Below, in pieces: positions 2,548-10,524 of a stretch of DNA of 29,569 bases. This DNA comes from a virus. The translations under genes and the position numbers were made by a program. Where the stretch lies: the IMG/VR virus record IMGVR_UViG_3300027749_000383, positions 1-29,569 of that record. The stretch is one strand, 5' to 3'. The notes under the pieces are model-generated. The model saw only the letters and a program-made list of their open reading frames with translations, was not told the origin of the DNA and did not search any database. Numbering within the stretch: the stretch's first letter is position 1; each line of letters begins with the position of its first letter.

Positions 2548-2569
2548 ATAATGTATGGAGAATAGTAAT

Positions 2570-3790
2570 ATGACTAATCCCATTTTTAGTGAACTTGTGT
2601 CCGCTATCTACGGTAATGCCGTAGACGAACGCGAGATTTGGGATGTTATTTCTAAATCCGGAAACATGCCAAAAGATGCTTCTCTTAAGGAAACACGCAC
2701 TGGTCAGGCATTAAACGTGGTGGCTGGCACTGGCGGAGGTTTAGCCTTGTACCACGCTACAAAGCGCATGAATTTGGCTAGAAAAGGCATTGATGTCGAA
2801 GGCTCTAGAAAATCCTCAAAACTAATTTCTGGAATGAAAAGAGTTCCGGGTCTAAAAGTAATAGCAGAGCATCCAAAGGGTGCTGCTGTGACCGCAGCTG
2901 GCGCCGCCATGACGCTTCACGGAGCAGAACTTGCTGGAGACGCTATCGCAGCAAGATCATTGCACCGTTCAGCGCAAAGAGCTAAATACAACAAATCGCA
3001 AATCAAAAAGTCTATTGGCGATGTGATTGAAGCGCGTAAATCTGGAAGAATTACTACCGAGCAAGCAATATCTCTCGCAGATGACGTAATTCAAAAAGGT
3101 TTGATTTCTGAAGTTGCAAGAGGAGCTTGGAAAGGCCTCAAGGGAACAAAGGGCTTACCAAGTGGTGTAAGACAGGCTCCGGGCGCTTTTAGAAGACTCG
3201 TGGGAAACGCTGGAAAAAAAGTTCATCTACCGGTACAGCCGCTTAATAATAAACAACTTGCTAGAGGTTCGGCCGCTGTTGGTGCCGTAGCTGGCGCTGG
3301 AGGAACTCTTGCCTACCAGAATAGACAACGTAAATCTGCCATACCACCTAATCCAACCGTTGCTAAATCTGATTCAGGAATGACTTGGAAAGGCGAAATT
3401 TCTAAGGTTGATACTGATAAGCGTCAGGTATTTGGCTGGTGCAGTCTCACCTCCATGAATGGTCAGCCTGTTATTGACCTTCAGGGCGATTATGTCCCCT
3501 TAGAAGAAATTGAAAAAGCCGCTTACGAGTATGTAATTCATTCCCGTAAGGGCGGAGACATGCACGCGAGAGACGGAGAAGGCCCTAAACATACCGCTGA
3601 TCTTATTGAGTCTTTCCTTGTTACTCCAGAGAAACTTAAACAAATGGGTCTTTCTGACAACGCTCTGCCGCACGGATGGTGGATTGGCATGAAAGTTAAT
3701 GACGATGAACAATGGAACCTAGTTAAAAGCGGTGGCCGCACTGGTTTTTCCATTCACGGTAAAGGTTCACGCATCGAGAAAATGCTCTGA
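2570..3790 (+). CDS. XkdF-type prohead protease with Gly/Ala-rich N-terminal extension
   Basis: The C-terminal ~125 residues match the PBSX XkdF-like putative serine protease family (Peptidase_S78_2 type). With residue numbers from the ATG at 2570 these span about 273-398: VFGWCSL near the start, IDLQGDYVPLEEIEKAAYEYV, then H341 and the ADLIESF segment with S348, GWWIGMKV, and finally TGFSIHGKG. H341 and S348 are the best candidates for catalytic residues by comparison with the family. Its role would be processing of scaffold and head proteins in the procapsid. The first ~270 residues are not protease: they hold two Gly/Ala-rich hydrophobic segments and basic helices like those of nearby genes. 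ATG 2570 has GGAG nine bases upstream; ATG 2555 (five residues longer) has no good ribosome site. Confidence 0.8.
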   Translation: MTNPIFSELVSAIYGNAVDEREIWDVISKSGNMPKDASLKETRTGQALNVVAGTGGGLALYHATKRMNLARKGIDVEGSRKSSKLISGMKRVPGLKVIAEHPKGAAVTAAGAAMTLHGAELAGDAIAARSLHRSAQRAKYNKSQIKKSIGDVIEARKSGRITTEQAISLADDVIQKGLISEVARGAWKGLKGTKGLPSGVRQAPGAFRRLVGNAGKKVHLPVQPLNNKQLARGSAAVGAVAGAGGTLAYQNRQRKSAIPPNPTVAKSDSGMTWKGEISKVDTDKRQVFGWCSLTSMNGQPVIDLQGDYVPLEEIEKAAYEYVIHSRKGGDMHARDGEGPKHTADLIESFLVTPEKLKQMGLSDNALPHGWWIGMKVNDDEQWNLVKSGGRTGFSIHGKGSRIEKML

Positions 3791-3807
3791 GAGCAGAAGG
3801 AACAAAA

Positions 3808-4242
3808 ATGACACTTGCTGAAGCCCTAGGCGTGGTCCTGGCGAATACCTTCCAAATGTATATGAAAGCTCATAAACATCACTTTAACGTGGTTGGAGAG
3901 GGATTTCCCTACTACCACAAATTCTTTAATAAAATATATGAAGATGTTTATGGGGCAATTGACCCAACTTCCGAGAACATTAGAAAACTCGGAGAAAAAG
4001 TTCAATTTGAAGCTGAGTGGATGCTCGTACATTCCACAATTCAAAATGAAATTACTATTAATGCTCAAGCTATGTGCCAAGATTTATACATAGCTAACAA
4101 CATTATTTTAGACAGTTTAATGCTGGCTTTCAAGATAGCGGATAATAGTAACGAACAAGGTATCTGCAACTTCCTTGCGGATAGAATCGATTCTCACGAG
4201 AAGCATCGTTGGATGCTAAAATCTTCAATGAAGGAGCAATAA
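3808..4242 (+). CDS. Dps-like ferritin-fold protein
   Basis: A 144-residue protein resembling Dps mini-ferritins, which form dodecameric shells that oxidise and store iron and can protect DNA. The N-terminal half carries AHKHHFNVVGEGFPYYHKFF and later IDPTSENIRKLG, which align with the Dps HWNVxGxxF-x3-H and D-x3-ERI-x2-LG signatures. Placed on E. coli Dps, ferroxidase ligands H25, H37, D52 and E56 are present, but the position equivalent to D67 is N41. The last helix has EKHRWMLKSS, like the Dps EKxxWxL ending. Length is close to that of bacterial Dps. It lies between the protease and a Cys-cluster protein, in operon (AGAAGGA before ATG; its stop directly precedes the next ATG). Whether it is in the virion or acts in the cell is unknown. 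Confidence 0.75.
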   Translation: MTLAEALGVVLANTFQMYMKAHKHHFNVVGEGFPYYHKFFNKIYEDVYGAIDPTSENIRKLGEKVQFEAEWMLVHSTIQNEITINAQAMCQDLYIANNIILDSLMLAFKIADNSNEQGICNFLADRIDSHEKHRWMLKSSMKEQ

Positions 4243-5094
4243 ATGTGCGCTAGTTGCGGCTGTGGATGCAAAAAAGGTAGTCCGGAAAAGGGTTGTAAAT
4301 GCGATTGCAAAACCTGTGCTAATGCCAGAGAAGGTGCTAAGCATGAGTCTTCTGAAAGCAAATCTTATGAAGGCAAAGAAAAAGAAGTAGAAAAAGCTTT
4401 TAAAGACGCTTCAGATATTCTTAAAGCTTATACTAATTCTCAATTAAAGCGCAAGCGCAATATTGGTCTTGGTGCTGCTGGGGTAGGAGCCTTAGGCGTT
4501 GCCGCCGGACGACCAATGGTGGACATGGTGCGTGCGCGCACACTACAGTCGGTGATGACTCCAGATGCAGCTAAACAAGCAAAATATATTAAATCCGCCG
4601 TTAGATATGCACATGGTGCTACTGGTCTCGGACTAGGCGGGGCTGCAATCGTTGCTGGTGGACTTGCTCAGGCTGGTAAATCTCAAATACGCTTATCTCA
4701 TAGAAATAGAAAAATGGACGTCACTAAGGCTGCCTTTTTTGCAGAAGATGTGGAAAAAGGTATGCCGAATATCGCCGCAATGGGCGGACAATTAAAAGCT
4801 CTTGGTGGCGCCCTAAAAACTGGAGCAAAGGCTTTTGTGAGTGGTGCAAAAACTGGTGAAAAATTTGGTTCCGCTGGTGTTAAAAATGCCGTATCTCCAT
4901 ATGGCGTTGCTAACGCAGCTCAAAAGGTAAAGACTGCTGGTTTTAAAACTGGAAATGCTTATGGCGCTGGTAAGAAATACGCCATGGCAAATCCTGGCAA
5001 GACTGCCGCAATGGGAGCCGGAGCCGGAGTAGTTGGTTACGGAGCAACAAAAATTAATAAGTCTGCAGTATCAGCGTTTGGCGTAGAACACTAA
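4243..5094 (+). CDS. Metallothionein-like Cys cluster fused to glycine-zipper region; head-operon protein
   Basis: A 283-residue protein of unknown function. All eight cysteines fall in the first 25 residues (2, 5, 7, 9, 18, 20, 22, 25) as CxxCxCxC and CxCxCxxC, a metallothionein-like arrangement likely to bind Zn, Cu or a similar ion. The rest is basic, with Gly/Ala-rich hydrophobic segments near 75-92, 124-146 and 253-273 that resemble glycine zippers. Tetrapeptides VEKA, VTKA and INKS recur, and the protein ends in SAFGVEH, a signature shared with two later genes. It starts right after the stop of the Dps-like gene, with AAGGAG at 4231-4236. An internal virion or ejected membrane-interacting protein is one possibility; this is inference. 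Confidence 0.6.
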   Translation: MCASCGCGCKKGSPEKGCKCDCKTCANAREGAKHESSESKSYEGKEKEVEKAFKDASDILKAYTNSQLKRKRNIGLGAAGVGALGVAAGRPMVDMVRARTLQSVMTPDAAKQAKYIKSAVRYAHGATGLGLGGAAIVAGGLAQAGKSQIRLSHRNRKMDVTKAAFFAEDVEKGMPNIAAMGGQLKALGGALKTGAKAFVSGAKTGEKFGSAGVKNAVSPYGVANAAQKVKTAGFKTGNAYGAGKKYAMANPGKTAAMGAGAGVVGYGATKINKSAVSAFGVEH

Positions 5095-5096
5095 AA

Positions 5097-5843
5097 ATGT
5101 CAAAACAAATGACGCCTGAAGAACTTGCTAGACGCAAAAGAATTCAGGCACACCTTTCTGTCGCCGGAGGCACCCTTGGCTTAACCGCCCTGGGCGCTAA
5201 AGGCGCTGGATTGGCATTAGGACGCGCCGGTAAGGCCGTTCATGCTGTAAAGGCAGACAAAACAGCTATTGGAATATTGACCGGCGGAGCTGGTCTTGGC
5301 GGTGTTGGAGCTTTTAATTTCGCCGCCACACAAAAAGCAGAGGCAGCCGGAGTGAAACCTAAAATGGTACTAGTCAAAAAAGCATACAATCCTGAACGAA
5401 ATCGGGAGCGTAGAGCCAACGTTTATACGGGTGCGGCAATAGCGGGTACGGGTGCTGGAGTATTAAGATCAGCCAAAGCATTTAATAGCGCAGGCGGCGT
5501 GGGACATCTGAAACTAGCAGGAGCTAGAAGAAAACAAGCTTCTGATTTTATTTCCAGGTCAAAGACAAGAACTGGCAAGACCGCCGCTGCAAATATTGCA
5601 AATGACACGAAAAAAGCTTCTGCTTTTAAAAACCTATCACGCTCGCATGTCGTTTCAGCCGGTAAAATTGTAAGGACAAGAGGAGTTCTAGTTCCTTTGG
5701 GGGCTTCTGCGGCTCTTGCCGGAACCGCCGGGGCTATTCAGCGTCAGAAAAAGAACAGCGGTCGCCCCTATAGCGGCTGGTACGACGGTAAGCAAAAACC
5801 AAAGTTTTCTCGTGTGGATAACACAACTGCAACAAGTAATTAA
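5097..5843 (+). CDS. Basic glycine-zipper protein, unknown function
   Basis: A 248-residue, strongly basic protein that I do not recognise. It has four Gly/Ala-rich hydrophobic segments near residues 20-45, 55-75, 105-125 and 198-214, separated by Lys/Arg-rich stretches. The pattern resembles the preceding gene, the N-terminal part of the protease gene, and the genes at 8660 and 10039. It contains LVKKAYNPE, related to the xKA tetrapeptides common in this head region. The C-terminus (about 220-248) is polar with YSGWYDGKQKPKFSR. The ATG lies two bases after the upstream stop. Position suggests a head-associated protein, perhaps internal or ejected. Confidence 0.55.
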   Translation: MSKQMTPEELARRKRIQAHLSVAGGTLGLTALGAKGAGLALGRAGKAVHAVKADKTAIGILTGGAGLGGVGAFNFAATQKAEAAGVKPKMVLVKKAYNPERNRERRANVYTGAAIAGTGAGVLRSAKAFNSAGGVGHLKLAGARRKQASDFISRSKTRTGKTAAANIANDTKKASAFKNLSRSHVVSAGKIVRTRGVLVPLGASAALAGTAGAIQRQKKNSGRPYSGWYDGKQKPKFSRVDNTTATSN

Positions 5844-5901
5844 TTTCACTAAAAAACCTTAGCGTAATGTGAATTGCGTTATAGACAATAATATGTAATA
5901 C

Positions 5902-5907
5902 AGGAGG
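5902..5907 (+). promoter_or_regulatory. Strong ribosome binding site supporting a GTG start
   Basis: AGGAGG lies six bases before GTG at 5914. It is one of the strongest Shine-Dalgarno sequences in the window and fixes the scaffold start at GTG. The 70-base gap before it is the largest gene-free gap between 1 and 27338, so a promoter may lie there, but I could not identify a convincing one. Confidence 0.8.
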
Positions 5908-5913
5908 CGAAAA

Positions 5914-6690
5914 GTGTCTAGGCGAGTAAAAGAACTAAGCAACATTGAAATTGATGAAATTTCTCTTGTTGACAAACCCGCAAACCAGCATGCCAAGGTG
6001 GCTATCGCCAAAAGGGCTCCCGAGGAGGAAACAGTGCCCGAAGAAATCTATGATGAGAACGGCAACTTTGTCGATATCGCATCTCTTCAAGAGGGTGACA
6101 TCATTGTTGACGAAGAAGGTAACGAATACGTTTGGACATTCGAAGCTGACGACGAAGACGAAGAATCTCTCACTGAAGAATTAGAAGCAGTTGGCAAATC
6201 ATTTGCTAACGACATCAGAGAAGAGCTATCAAAGGCTCTTACCGATATTGACCGCGATGATGTAATCGCTAAATATGTTGGTGAAATTAGCAAGGCAGAA
6301 GCTCGTGCATACGAAGCAGAAAGCATCGCTAAAGCAGAGCGTACTTTGCGTCTTGAAAGAGAATACATCTCTAAGGCTGCAGAATACAATGTGCCAATCG
6401 CACCAGAAGATCTCGGTCCAGTTCTCATGCGCATGGCTGAAACCATGTCGTACGACGATTGCGCAGTTATCCACAAGGCTCTCACCGCTTCAGGTGAAAT
6501 CCTTTGGGAAGAAGTTGGCTATCAGGGTCTCTCTGATAACTCAGACGTTTTCTCTCAGGTAGACGCTCTTGCCGGTGAATTTATCAGCAAAGCAAACAGT
6601 GGTATCAGCAAGCACGCAGCTGTTGCAGATCTGTTTTCGCATAATCCACGTGCATACGACGAGTACCTCGCTGAAAAGCGCGGATACTAA
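5914..6690 (+). CDS. Capsid scaffold-like protein with SLVDKPAN N-terminal motif
   Basis: A 258-residue acidic, helix-rich protein placed directly before the decoration and capsid genes, the normal scaffold position. The N-terminus reads IDEISLVDKPANQHAKVAI, a motif common at the protease/scaffold junction of XkdF-type phages. Residues about 60-115 are very rich in Asp and Glu, followed by coiled-coil-like helices (about 85-145). At least six tetrapeptides of the form [VIL]xK[AS] occur (LSKA, ISKA, IAKA, ISKA, IHKA, ISKA), which could be cleavage sites for the protease encoded upstream. GTG start with AGGAGG. Expected role: template capsid assembly and then be degraded. The scaffold call rests on position and composition. 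Confidence 0.65.
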   Translation: MSRRVKELSNIEIDEISLVDKPANQHAKVAIAKRAPEEETVPEEIYDENGNFVDIASLQEGDIIVDEEGNEYVWTFEADDEDEESLTEELEAVGKSFANDIREELSKALTDIDRDDVIAKYVGEISKAEARAYEAESIAKAERTLRLEREYISKAAEYNVPIAPEDLGPVLMRMAETMSYDDCAVIHKALTASGEILWEEVGYQGLSDNSDVFSQVDALAGEFISKANSGISKHAAVADLFSHNPRAYDEYLAEKRGY

Positions 6691-6707
6691 GAAAGGATGT
6701 AAGTTAA

Positions 6708-7340
6708 ATGGCTTACGATGAGGGTCTACGGACTATCTCCCTGAATGCTGATGCTACATTAGCAGCCAGAACTGGATCGCCAACTGTCGTTGCGCTTACC
6801 GTCACCAACAAAGCACTTACTTCTAACGTTGCAACCTTGACTGTTAACGCAGCTCACGGTTTCTCTGTTGGTCAGCAAGTGGTTGTTGCGGGCGTTGACG
6901 CGACTTTCAATGGCATTCAGGTTGTCACCGCAGTTGGTTCTGCAGTGACTTTCACATACGCAAAAACGGCTACTAACGTTACTTCTGCTGCCGCGACTGG
7001 AACCGTAACTGGTACCGCTCCAAGCATCAAGGGTAATCAGTACCGCTTTGTCAAGGTTACCGGAGCTCATACTGTCGGTCTCGCTACTGACTCTGACAAT
7101 GGTGCTTTAATCATTGGTGTTTTGCAGAATAAACCGCAGGTTACCGGTACTGCTGCTTCCGTTGCAATTGACGGTGTCAGCCTTATTGAAGCAGGCGCAA
7201 CAATTGCCGCAGGTAATGCAGTAAAGGCTGACTCTCTTGGTCGCGCCGTTGCGGCAACCGTCGGTACCGACGTAGTAAGTGGTTTTGCATTGGCAGCAGC
7301 CTCTGTTGGACAACTTTTTCCCGTTAAACTACGGGTCTGA
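6708..7340 (+). CDS. Capsid decoration-like protein with inserted beta module
   Basis: A 210-residue protein immediately before the major capsid gene. Residues 1-27 plus about 103-210 look like a small beta-rich head decoration protein (DUF2190-like: KGNQYRFVKVTG, then GALIIGVLQNKPQ, then VSLIEAGATIAAGNAVKADSLGRA near the end). Residues about 28-102 look like a separate domain: VATLTVNAAHGFSVGQQVVV, FNGIQVVTA, VTFTYA. The same pattern appears in the tail proteins at 19420 and 21451 and resembles the FCCH-like beta module that searches often report in phage structural proteins. Such a protein would sit on the outer capsid surface and stabilise it. AAAGGA precedes the ATG. Confidence 0.6.
   Translation: MAYDEGLRTISLNADATLAARTGSPTVVALTVTNKALTSNVATLTVNAAHGFSVGQQVVVAGVDATFNGIQVVTAVGSAVTFTYAKTATNVTSAAATGTVTGTAPSIKGNQYRFVKVTGAHTVGLATDSDNGALIIGVLQNKPQVTGTAASVAIDGVSLIEAGATIAAGNAVKADSLGRAVAATVGTDVVSGFALAAASVGQLFPVKLRV
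6789..7013 (+). other. FCCH-like beta module inserted in decoration protein
   Basis: Residues about 28-102 of the decoration-like protein have the pattern valine-rich strand, AHGFSVGQ, V-x-V, FNGIQVV and VTFTYA. This pattern recurs at 19648-19839, 19867-20064 and 22654-22902 in tail genes. Boundaries are by eye. Confidence 0.55.
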
Positions 7341-7363
7341 AGAAAGGTAAAGGAAAAGCTTAA

Positions 7364-8365
7364 ATGCCAACTCCATCACAATCCGATTTACATATTAATG
7401 CTCCCCTTACGAGCGTTTCGGTTGCTTACCTTCAGGATTCCGATGTCTTTATTGCGGACAAAGTTTTCCCAAAGGTTCCAGTTCAAAAGCAATCTGACCT
7501 CTACTGGAAGTATTCAAAGTCCGACTGGCGTCGTACTGACGTCCAGCGTCGCGCTCCATCTACCGAGTCACCTGGTGTCGGTTGGAACGTAACTACGGAT
7601 CAGTACTTTGCACACGTCTACGCTGTCCATAAGGATATCGACGATCAACTACGTGCAAACGCTGACTCTAACTTCAATCTCGATTCAGACTCAACCAAGT
7701 TCATCACAAATCAGCTTTTGCTGAAGCGTGACCTTGATTTTGCTGCAACCTACCTGCAAACAGGTGTTTGGGCAACTGAATATACTGGTGTTTCTGCAAG
7801 CCCAACCGGCTCACAGTTCCTCCAGTGGAACAACGCTTCATCTGACCCAATCATGGCTATCAATAGCTGGATTGTAAGTTTCCGTCAGTTGACAGGTTTT
7901 GCTCCGAATATTCTTGTTCTCGGTGCTCTTACTTTCCAGACGTTGCGTCAGCATCCTCTGATTGTTGATCGCATCAAGTACACCCAGCGCGGTATTGTTA
8001 CTGAAGAATTGCTTGCAGCGTTGTTTGGTGTTCCAAAGATTGTCGTTTCATACGCAACCAAGGAAACATCTAGCGCACAGTATGGTGATTCAATCGTTCA
8101 GGACGCAAACGCATCATATGCATTCATCACCGACAGCAAGTCTGCAGCGTTGTTCTACGCTCCTCCTGCTGCTTCCCTGATGACTCCATCTGCAGGTTAC
8201 ATCTTTACCTGGAATGGTTACGCAGCTGGTAACGGCGAAGGCATCCGTGTCAAGAGTTTCCGTATGGAACATCTTGCATCAGATCGCATTGAAGCTGAAA
8301 TGACTTACGACATGAAGGCAGTTGCTACCGACATGGGCGTATTCATTAACAGCGCAGTCGCATAA
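7364..8365 (+). CDS. Major capsid protein
   Basis: A 333-residue protein in the canonical position after scaffold and decoration genes and before a strong terminator. Features common to HK97-fold capsid proteins of this type include the N-terminal SVAYLQDSDVFIADKVFPKV, a central ring of polar residues around WRRTDVQRRAP, DFAATYLQT, ILVLGALTFQTLRQHP, and a C-terminal strand set with FRMEHLASDRIEAEMTYDMKAV. It would form the icosahedral shell. The codons contain more C-ending choices than the tail genes, as often seen for very highly expressed genes. No obvious N-terminal delta domain long enough for HK97-style processing is apparent, consistent with a separate scaffold. Confidence 0.85.
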   Translation: MPTPSQSDLHINAPLTSVSVAYLQDSDVFIADKVFPKVPVQKQSDLYWKYSKSDWRRTDVQRRAPSTESPGVGWNVTTDQYFAHVYAVHKDIDDQLRANADSNFNLDSDSTKFITNQLLLKRDLDFAATYLQTGVWATEYTGVSASPTGSQFLQWNNASSDPIMAINSWIVSFRQLTGFAPNILVLGALTFQTLRQHPLIVDRIKYTQRGIVTEELLAALFGVPKIVVSYATKETSSAQYGDSIVQDANASYAFITDSKSAALFYAPPAASLMTPSAGYIFTWNGYAAGNGEGIRVKSFRMEHLASDRIEAEMTYDMKAVATDMGVFINSAVA

Positions 8366-8378
8366 CGAACAAATAAGT

Positions 8379-8420
8379 CTAAGAGGTCGCTGTCACTTTT
8401 GGCGGCGACCTCTTAGTTTA
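8379..8420 (+). terminator. Hairpin terminator after the major capsid gene
   Basis: A perfect 12-bp stem pairs 8379-8390 (CTAAGAGGTCGC) with 8405-8416 (GCGACCTCTTAG). It can extend inward by four more pairs, two of them G-T, leaving a 6-base loop ACTTTT. It is followed by TTTA, a short T run, so termination is probably partial. It lies 14 bases after the capsid stop and would raise capsid transcript relative to downstream genes. Confidence 0.85.
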
Positions 8421-8630: not shown

Positions 8631-8659
8631 CGGAATGACCAGCGTTGGATAATGGAGTT

Positions 8660-10039
8660 ATGCCATTTAAATCCGAGCAGCAGAGACGTTATATGTTCTC
8701 GCAGCACCCAAATATCGCTAGTCGTTGGGTGAAAGAAGAAAAGGCTAAAGCCAAAAAGGAAAAGCGTGTGCCTAACTATGTAGTCGCCAAATCAGCGTTT
8801 GGTATCGAACACGCTGGCGAAGAAATTAACAAGGCTGGTTTTGGTAGTCTTTTGCGTCTCGGAGCTTCAGGAGAAAAAGGCGCTAATGCCGCTTTAAAGG
8901 GAACTCGCGAAGTAAAAGCTGTTCACGACATGCCAAATGTCGCAGCAAAGCCTAAAGATATTTTAAGTAGCGTTAGAACCGCTCAAGCGCGTGCTAAATC
9001 AGTTCACCCGCCAATTGCTCTTGGTACGGGCAAAGAACTTGTTCCCTTTAAACCAGCTCCATTTGTTGCAAAGCCACGTCCTGTAGGAATTAAGGGAACT
9101 GGGAATCCAGTTAAACCAAAAATTTCCTTACCATCAGCACCAAAACCAAAAGTTCCAGGTCGTGCATCTAGCGGTTTTACTGGTTTTAAATCTGGCATTA
9201 AAACTGGGGCAGTTCCAAATCCAACAAGAGCCGGAGTATCCAGTGGAAGACTCGCCCCACTCACGTCTAGTCAAAAGGCTACGCAATCTGGCGCAAAAGT
9301 TGGCGCTAAAGTTAGAAACGCACCAGCAGCAGCCAAAGGAAGACTTGTTGCTACCGGCAGAAACGTTTCCGCCAAGACAAAAGCTGTCGCAGGCAATGCT
9401 AAGGGCAAGCTTGTCTCCACTGGAAACAAGGCCAAGAATGGTGCTAAAGCGACAGCCGGAAAACTCGTTACGACTGGAAGAAACGCGAAACAGACTGCTA
9501 GCGCTAATATTAATGCCGTTAAAAGAGGCTACAACACGGCCGCGGCAGGCAAAGAGGGTGGACTTCATGGCGCACTTCGAACTGGAGAAGCTTCTTCTTA
9601 CCGTGCAGGATCGGCAGCAGGAAAAGCCAAGGGCAAAATGGTTTCAACTGGTTCGAAAGCTAAAGCAGGCGCGAAAGCCGCTCCAGGAAGATTAATGACT
9701 TCTGGTAGAAATGTTAAAACTACAGTTGGGGATAACGCACATGCCCTTAAAAGCGGCTACAGGATGGGTAGAACGGGTCAAGAAGGCGGTTTGCATGGAG
9801 CACTTAGGTCTGGCGTAAAGACGTCTGAAAAGGCCGGTAGAGGCGCTGGAAAGGCCGTTGCTACGCGTTCAGCTAATAAAGCCTCTAAAGTAAGAATTAA
9901 AGCAGTTCAAAATGGTCCAAAGTCTCAGGTTGCAAACAAAGATATTAATCCAGCCACTGCGGCACTCGCAGGCGGCGCTCTCGTTGGCGCTGGTGCGGGC
10001 GGAGCAGCATTAGTTAGTCGCCGACGCAAGGAACAATAA
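8660..10039 (+). CDS. Basic repeat protein with MPFKSEQQRR N-terminus and C-terminal hydrophobic anchor
   Basis: A very basic ~459-residue protein. It opens with MPFKSEQQRRYMFSQHPNIA, a motif common in small phage proteins (PFKSExQRRxxxxxxPxIAxxW), here followed by a long extension. Near residues 45-51 is SAFGIEH, then INKA. Residues about 75-190 are Pro/Lys-rich and probably disordered. Residues about 248-399 are two 76-residue tandem repeats (separate entry). The end has a Gly/Ala-rich hydrophobic segment followed by RRRKEQ, like a membrane anchor. Composition recalls H1-type DNA-binding tails, so an internal DNA-associated or ejected protein is plausible, but unproven. ATG 8660 fits the motif start; TTG 8645 in the same frame is an alternative, as spacing from GGAG to 8660 is very short. 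Confidence 0.6.
   Translation: MPFKSEQQRRYMFSQHPNIASRWVKEEKAKAKKEKRVPNYVVAKSAFGIEHAGEEINKAGFGSLLRLGASGEKGANAALKGTREVKAVHDMPNVAAKPKDILSSVRTAQARAKSVHPPIALGTGKELVPFKPAPFVAKPRPVGIKGTGNPVKPKISLPSAPKPKVPGRASSGFTGFKSGIKTGAVPNPTRAGVSSGRLAPLTSSQKATQSGAKVGAKVRNAPAAAKGRLVATGRNVSAKTKAVAGNAKGKLVSTGNKAKNGAKATAGKLVTTGRNAKQTASANINAVKRGYNTAAAGKEGGLHGALRTGEASSYRAGSAAGKAKGKMVSTGSKAKAGAKAAPGRLMTSGRNVKTTVGDNAHALKSGYRMGRTGQEGGLHGALRSGVKTSEKAGRGAGKAVATRSANKASKVRIKAVQNGPKSQVANKDINPATAALAGGALVGAGAGGAALVSRRRKEQ
9401..9856 (+). repeat. Two tandem 228-bp (76-aa) coding repeats
   Basis: Unit 1 (9401-9628) and unit 2 (9629-9856) are in frame and encode parallel sequences: KGKLVSTGNKAKNGAKA with KGKMVSTGSKAKAGAKA, GKLVTTGRNAK with GRLMTSGRNVK, and KEGGLHGALRTGE with QEGGLHGALRSGV. 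A partial earlier unit (GRLVATGRNVSAKTKA) lies just before. The DNA copies have diverged while the protein pattern is kept. Confidence 0.85.
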
Positions 10040-10524
10040 TGCTATCTGCATTTGGAATTAATCACGGTTTAATATCAAAAATGGATCCAGGTTCTACCGA
10101 TATGCACGTAAATAGACCAATTGGTACCGCTAATAAATACGTTCAAACCATAAATACCGGAAATAAAAAGGTTCCTAAAAAAGCATACCCATTTCTTCAT
10201 GCTTCCGTAGTTAGAGCTTACGATGATACTCGGGCACATAAAGTTAGGGCTGCTACAAAACAAGCAGGAGCCGCCTCAATAGGTGGTGCCGCTGGAAGTT
10301 TAGCGGGTTTAACTGCAGTTTCACTGGCTGGTAAAAGAGTGCCAGCACTTAGAAATTCTTCCAAAATTCTAGGAAGAACGCTCACATCTGAAAGAAAAAT
10401 TGGTCTAGCGGCAGGTGTTGGCGCTGGAGCCGTTGGTGGAACAGGTGGCGCAGCAGCAAACTACTACGCGCTTGAAAACACCAAGAAAAATAAAAAATAC
10501 AAATTTAGGAGTCATAATGGATAG
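10039..10524 (+). CDS. Glycine-zipper protein with N-terminal SAFGINH signature
   Basis: A 161-residue basic protein of unknown function. It begins MLSAFGINHGLISKMDPG, sharing the SAFG[IV][EN]H signature with the genes at 4243 and 8660, followed by ISKM. Two Gly/Ala-rich hydrophobic segments lie near 78-102 and 125-148, the second with AAGVGAGAVGGTGGAAANYY. The C-terminus is Lys-rich (KKNKKYKFRS). The start overlaps the upstream stop as TAATG. It belongs with the other glycine-zipper proteins of this head block and may be a virion-internal or membrane-interacting protein. Confidence 0.6.
   Translation: MLSAFGINHGLISKMDPGSTDMHVNRPIGTANKYVQTINTGNKKVPKKAYPFLHASVVRAYDDTRAHKVRAATKQAGAASIGGAAGSLAGLTAVSLAGKRVPALRNSSKILGRTLTSERKIGLAAGVGAGAVGGTGGAAANYYALENTKKNKKYKFRSHNG

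Follow-up and report, generated by a model that had tools for sequence, protein, structure and literature searches.

The analysed DNA is an IMG/VR viral fragment of 29.6 kb (hereafter, the window) that carries a run of head genes, all on the plus strand. The series begins with a gene for a Mu gpF-like minor head protein (positions 289–2547; PF04233, E = 4e-9), followed by the gene for an XkdF-like (Peptidase_S78_2) head protease (2555–3790), which matches PF14550 in its C-terminal part (amino acids 281–408, E = 8.1e-19) and has an N-terminal region rich in Ala, Gly and Lys. The next gene (3808–4242) encodes a mini-ferritin of the Dps family. Downstream of it lie genes for an Ala/Gly-rich protein with a Cys-rich N-terminus and a terminal SAFGVEH peptide (4243–5094), an Ala-Gly-rich protein (5097–5843), a probable scaffold-like head protein of uncertain identity (5914–6690; a weak match to phrog_13547, a family of unknown function, at 8e-6, and still weaker matches to head families), a head cement/scaffold-like protein (6708–7340; phrog_673, 9e-15) and the major capsid protein (7364–8365; phrog_1005, 1.4e-85). 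The location proposed in the initial annotation, inside a phage head operon, is thus borne out by the XkdF-like protease and the Mu gpF-like protein upstream and by the phrog_673-related protein and the major capsid protein downstream.

The dps gene is tightly packed between its neighbours. Its ATG lies 17 nt after the protease stop codon and is preceded, at a distance of 6 nt, by the Shine–Dalgarno-like sequence AGAAGGA (3795–3801, plus strand), while its TAA stop codon directly abuts the ATG of the following gene, leaving a zero gap. The product is encoded as a stand-alone ORF, with no fusion, no recognised targeting signal and no SAFG tag of the kind carried by its neighbours. Rfam and tRNA scans of the window were empty, a promoter scan gave matches no better than those in shuffled sequence, and a nearest-DNA search with the window matched no phage record.

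The SAFG tag, with the consensus SAFG[IV]xH, is found in Ala/Gly/Lys-rich proteins of the head operon. In the window it occurs at the C-terminus of the 4243–5094 product, near amino acid 48 of the 8645–10039 product and at the N-terminus of the 10039–10524 product, and it recurs in the loci L010–L092, often as M-x-SAFGVDHGxISK at the N-terminus or as SAFGVDHGY at the C-terminus. There are 89 matches in 1.22 million residues from the loci of capsid relatives, all on the capsid strand; four cultured relatives gave none, and neither did 2.06 million residues from other loci of phages and bacteria. The peptide may serve to tag cargo or direct targeting, or else represent a protease site.

The identity of the 3808–4242 product (144 amino acids, pI 5.75) as a Dps-family mini-ferritin is confirmed, with a similarity beyond chance. 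The Pfam Ferritin profile PF00210 matches amino acids 5–139 with E = 2.8e-17 and phrog_3636 matches at 4e-24, while the NCBIfam Dps equivalog models match only below their curated cut-offs. A phmmer search of the PDB retrieved 8ff9 (Pseudomonas aeruginosa Dps PA0962) as the best match (2.8e-15), along with dozens of further Dps chains. An AlphaFold2 model, computed from an alignment of 61 viral sequences, reached a mean pLDDT of 96.3 and a pTM of 0.90. In this model, the four-helix bundle of the ferritin fold is predicted (helices at residues 3–27, 33–48/51–60, 86–113 and 117–141), with the short BC helix (69–75) placed in the B–C loop. Foldseek and VIA searches with the model returned Dps or Dps-like proteins in every top row, with a TM-score of 0.93 and a Z-score of 22.5 against 8ff9 and a Z-score of 22.6 against MrgA. 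Since profile, PDB and structural matches are all Dps, the family call made at first from a residue motif no longer depends on that motif.

The protein shares the fold, the BC helix and four iron ligands with PA0962 and with other canonical bacterial Dps (MrgA and those of Vibrio cholerae and Listeria innocua), at an identity of around 29%. It differs from canonical bacterial Dps in being phage-borne and encoded in a head operon, and in having no N-terminal tail. The basic N-terminal tail that serves DNA binding, which only a subset of Dps possesses, is missing, as helix A starts at residue 3; together with the acidic pI, this leaves the suggestion of DNA protection through direct binding without support, and DNA coating is not proposed here because the tail is absent.

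The residues H25, H37, N41, D52 and E56 follow one another with the 12-4-11-4 spacing of Dps. By alignment, H25 (codon at 3880–3882), H37 (3916–3918), D52 (3961–3963) and E56 (3973–3975) correspond to the PA0962 residues H37, H49, D64 and E68, which alone hold both irons in iron-soaked crystals of that protein (PMC10002758). The ligand set of a putative intersubunit ferroxidase site, to which one subunit would give the two His and the other the Asp and Glu, is thus present, and all four residues are invariant across the 61-sequence viral alignment. Invariant in the same alignment is Y44, which occupies the place of L. innocua Y50, a radical trap (PMC10002758), and is common to the window protein and canonical Dps; the adjacent E45 (Y44 and E45 codons at 3937–3942) is found in 56 of the 61 sequences, one of the two sampling patterns having covered both of these sites. 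F26 (3883–3885) takes the place of a Trp that lies next to Fe1 in PA0962 and is kept in nearly all viral relatives. Judging from the retained catalytic ligands, the protein is probably catalytically competent as a ferroxidase.

The remaining position is N41 (3928–3930), four residues after H37 (H+4), where most cellular Dps have Asp or Glu and PA0962 has E53, a residue outside its iron ligands. The acid at this site is absent from the window protein and was not treated as family-defining. The initial annotation had counted four of five ferroxidase ligands; the residues and their spacing stand, while the five-ligand picture does not, and the count was too pessimistic, because the irons of the nearest solved relative are held by four side chains that are all conserved here. 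E45 (H+8) might conceivably take the place of the lost acid, an idea that the data neither favour nor reject; PA0962 needs no fifth ligand. Among the matches listed, Asp or Glu occupies H+4 in 29 of 120 viral Dps (24%) and is lost in the other 91, 62 of which have Gly, whereas 94 of 118 cellular Dps (80%) keep the acid, with 24 missing it and only two having Gly; the combination of Gly at H+4 with Glu at H+8 was found in 45 viral and no cellular Dps among the same matches. Both samples were drawn with one DNA pattern for HWNVxGxxFxxxH, which is blind to position 41 and demands Trp at position 26, so that the window Dps itself would be missed. The loss of the H+4 acid thus appears to characterise viral Dps in general, with N41 as one form of it. 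As most viral Dps lack this acid, N41 does not set the window protein apart, and the idea that it alters the metal chemistry is weakened, all the more so as the four PA0962 ligands are kept.

The distribution of the gene was followed through phages related by their major capsid protein. In the locus L011/L091, the capsid protein is 72% identical to that of the window and a Dps domain is 39% identical to the window Dps. In L091, it forms an in-frame fusion with a domain similar to the C-terminal half of the window 5097–5843 product (31% identity over about 150 amino acids). L090, a near sister of L091, carries the same gene without the Dps domain, with nearly identical DNA on the 3´ flank. A third arrangement is seen in L105, which shares a contig with the capsid relative L026, as judged by comparing contig names; there, the dps gene lies between a terminase-like gene (TerL) and the portal gene. 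Within one capsid group, three phages therefore have Dps in the head-gene interval, each at a different place. Overall, of about 48 capsid relatives whose sequence extends for at least 4.9 kb on the upstream side of the capsid gene, in loci that partly overlap, one was found to have Dps, and in cultured phages whose capsid proteins are 40–46% identical, no Dps is annotated in the head interval. The Dps domain is accessory in this phage group, given that it is absent from the corresponding place in the sister L090.

Two further likenesses were noted among these loci. A Cys-rich N-terminus (MCASCGCGCKKGSPEKGCKCDCKTC), encoded beside Dps at 4243–4330 in the window and at 7164–7260 in L091, and at about 4950–5050 in L090, is conserved in L090/L091 and looks like a metal-binding segment. 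The proteins encoded at 8660 in the window and at 8426 in L105 have a short N-terminal domain in common (MPFKSEQQRRYMF and MPFESKSQAKWMF, respectively; 37% identity over 38 amino acids), and the L105 protein is encoded directly after Dps.

The accessory nature of the domain bears on one of the roles first suggested, a repurposed structural protein, in which the Dps cage would form a shell or scaffold at the prohead core, its iron chemistry gone. Such a role would fit the position in the head operon and the fusions to head proteases described below. However, the invariance of H25, H37, D52, E56 and Y44 in the 61 relatives favours chemistry over a purely structural function. The domain is missing from a close sister phage that has these head genes too, and none is annotated at this place in the cultured phages whose capsid protein is related. 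This explanation is accordingly disfavoured and considered very improbable.

The same distribution is in keeping with a late accessory gene, or moron, whose cytoplasmic product would keep down the levels of free iron and of peroxide and thereby allow the infected cell, and the phage DNA replicating in it, to last until lysis; its location would be due to a head interval that tolerates cargo genes and is strongly transcribed. Absence from L090 and presence in a single one of the capsid relatives agree with this explanation. It is also in line with previously known phage Dps, which belong to the same PHROG (3636) and fold family as the window protein and occur in Aeromonas, Cronobacter, Streptomyces and Bacteroides phages, Lactobacillus myophages and Gratiaviridae. 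In the cultured phages examined, dps lies in non-head regions, in four of six cases beside nrdD, dCTP deaminase or primase/polymerase genes, and the published explanation for the Lactobacillus phages (PMC6669764) and Gratiaviridae (PMC8008677) is that Dps helps the infected host cell. Furthermore, Arthrobacter phage Kovu (L412), one of the relatives, encodes an RNA ligase, a nuclease, a ribonuclease and endonuclease VII in the interval between its capsid maturation protease and capsid genes (3957–7670). The presence of these non-virion genes indicates that the interval accepts varied cargo-like genes, and it may be a mere insertion hotspot.

Relatives of the Dps protein itself present a different picture. 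A scan of IMG/VR for close relatives with the window protein alone found none, while a two-sequence profile retrieved 234 relatives from two patterns, 80 of which were kept. In a search for a bacterial source, the same profile found no relative in 84,980 species genomes, the patterns being so window-specific that bacterial members could escape them. Many of the retained viral relatives lie beside or within head genes. A recurrent order is TerL–portal–[HAD phosphatase–Dps–S78 protease]–capsid, in which HAD, Dps and S78 form one ORF in five contigs (L138, L141, L142, L151 and L152, with domains assigned by local profile and alignment in L141, L151 and L152); the same single-ORF fusion is found in L178 and L236. 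Other combinations are phrog_2859–Dps–S78 (L205), Dps–S78 (L226), S78–Dps (L256), a phrog_2753 protease joined to Dps (L233), a phrog_9427 protease followed further along by Dps (L264) and phrog_859/18402–Dps (L114, L119 and L185). In eight of the ten long fusion ORFs scanned from a 120-locus sample, a head-maturation protease or a phrog_859/18402 domain was present on either side of Dps. At 16 loci, the portal gene (phrog_776) lies directly upstream of dps. The fusions are unlikely to be assembly artefacts, because they recur in contigs of 48–65% identity. Their linkers are mostly acidic and of low complexity, and an AlphaFold2 model of the HAD–Dps–S78 fusion from six sequences reached a pLDDT of only 48.

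The HAD phosphatase domain that precedes Dps and S78 in these seven loci has a conserved DxDxT-type motif and is apparently a second enzyme of the head polyprotein. Four loci (L114, L117, L119 and L120) encode ORFs of about 2000 amino acids that join phrog_2859, DUF5824, the phrog_859 head domain and Dps, with a match to a ParB-like region as well.

S78 proteases (HK97 gp4-like) do their work within the prohead, at a stage when DNA has yet to be packaged, and a Dps domain fused to one of them is thus expected to be carried inside. The fusions of homologues to head-maturation proteases, together with adjacency to the portal gene, provide independent support for the idea of a packaged protein. 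Repeated in-frame fusions to head proteases, in varied orders, are not predicted if Dps is a late cytoplasmic protein, nor is the finding that head-linked Dps are concentrated in a single clade.

This concentration is apparent in a Dps tree of 257 rows and 148 columns. One branch sets apart 135 of the 140 IMG/VR Dps, and the side on which they lie contains neither cellular nor cultured-phage Dps; the SH-aLRT support for it is 87, which is not strong. Within this group, the window Dps falls in an all-viral clade of 59 rows with a support of 96. The window protein would thus belong to a large virus-only Dps group represented in IMG/VR. The eight known phage Dps included in the tree all fall outside the virus-only clade of the window, the known phage Dps have no head-protease fusion, and no isolate carrying a head-clade Dps was found. 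Among the matches listed, recognised head genes accompany Dps in 12 of the 27 pattern-sampled loci that belong to the window's clade, compared with 3 of the 71 that do not. This contrast is inflated to some degree, the head profiles having been drawn largely from this clade, and related loci are not independent of one another. Head genes were recognised in 25 of the 120 sampled viral Dps loci (21 when virion protein vir1645 is excluded), among the matches listed and with an incomplete set of head profiles. In the longer Dps records, the S78 profile matched 3 of 50 and the T4-type portal profile likewise 3 of 50. Head linkage is therefore a minority state among viral Dps and not a general one.

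Taken together, the reading preferred here, held tentatively and at somewhat less than even confidence, is that the window Dps is a late-made mini-ferritin loaded into the prohead as cargo, where it would limit iron and peroxide damage to DNA. The place of the gene in the head operon, with its 17-nt and zero gaps, the protease fusions of its homologues, the 16 portal-adjacent loci, the Dps of L091 and L105 and the share of head-linked loci in the window's clade all support it. Against it stand the stand-alone form of the protein, which carries no recognised targeting signal, the minority status of head linkage among the sampled viral Dps and the chance that the protease-to-capsid interval is just a site of frequent insertion. 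Late cytoplasmic stress protection is nearly as likely.

As prohead cargo, the protein would be a late product of the same coupled operon as the head proteins and would presumably assemble into a 12-mer. It may then enter the prohead along with the protease and scaffold, an expectation drawn from the homologues and from the adjacent XkdF-like protease, and stay in or on the particle. There it would oxidise Fe(II) with H2O2 and store the ferric iron, and Fenton nicking of packaged or newly injected DNA would thereby be prevented, to the benefit of the phage. A broader proposal, more doubtful than the one for the window alone, is that in several uncultured phage lineages a virus-specific Dps subfamily is prohead cargo, often within a HAD phosphatase–Dps–protease polyprotein, with the capsid as an iron-detoxifying compartment.

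Encapsulins combine an HK97-fold shell with iron-oxidising cargo, which is sometimes fused to it. The likeness to the window is one of analogy only, in that an iron-oxidising ferritin-like protein is encoded with an HK97-type shell. Encapsulin cargo (EncFtn type) belongs to another ferritin-like family and is loaded via a targeting peptide, whereas the window ferritin is of the Dps type, the group in which sequence and fold searches place it. Moreover, the shell for the window Dps would be, unlike that of an encapsulin, a phage capsid with a protease and packaged DNA. If the cargo reading is true, the capsid around the packaged genome would be a counterpart to ferritin-loaded encapsulins, and head-linked Dps would bring together the fields of capsid assembly and encapsulin-like enzyme loading.

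The nearest published parallel from phage particles is gp217 of Kuttervirus (Vi01-like), a ferritin-like protein seen by mass spectrometry in phage preparations (PMC10892097). It was identified by Phyre2 and mass spectrometry, its gene and that of a tail completion protein are proposed to share an operon, and it is likened to the window Dps here by description. The finding was interpreted under the published "Ferrojan horse" idea, in which Dps would load the virion with iron so that host iron uptake is used for entry. For the window protein this appears the least probable of the explanations considered, with hardly any weight, as its gene lies among those for the head and a receptor-binding fusion was not observed; in addition, dependence on the pathway was not seen in the host tested by that study (PMC10892097).

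Dps and phage Dps were already known; what appears to be new is a virus-only clade tied to the portal, protease and capsid module, with protease fusions. Known phage Dps have been explained as helpers of the host cell, and the head-linked clade points instead to the virion, or the genome on its way into the cell, as what is protected. It suggests that some phages may pack a guard against iron and oxidative damage inside their particles. Protection against iron and peroxide by phage heads is a function undescribed in the open literature searched, where no description turned up of a Dps either joined to a head protease or encoded alongside one, most subscription papers lying outside the scope of that search.

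Finally, one viral locus (L169) encodes two Dps domains (7947–8411 and 9136–9705), 1.3 kb apart. The second has lost its ligands (H37 to R, D52 to H and E56 to V), so that, by its residues, the arrangement resembles a catalytic/non-catalytic pair.
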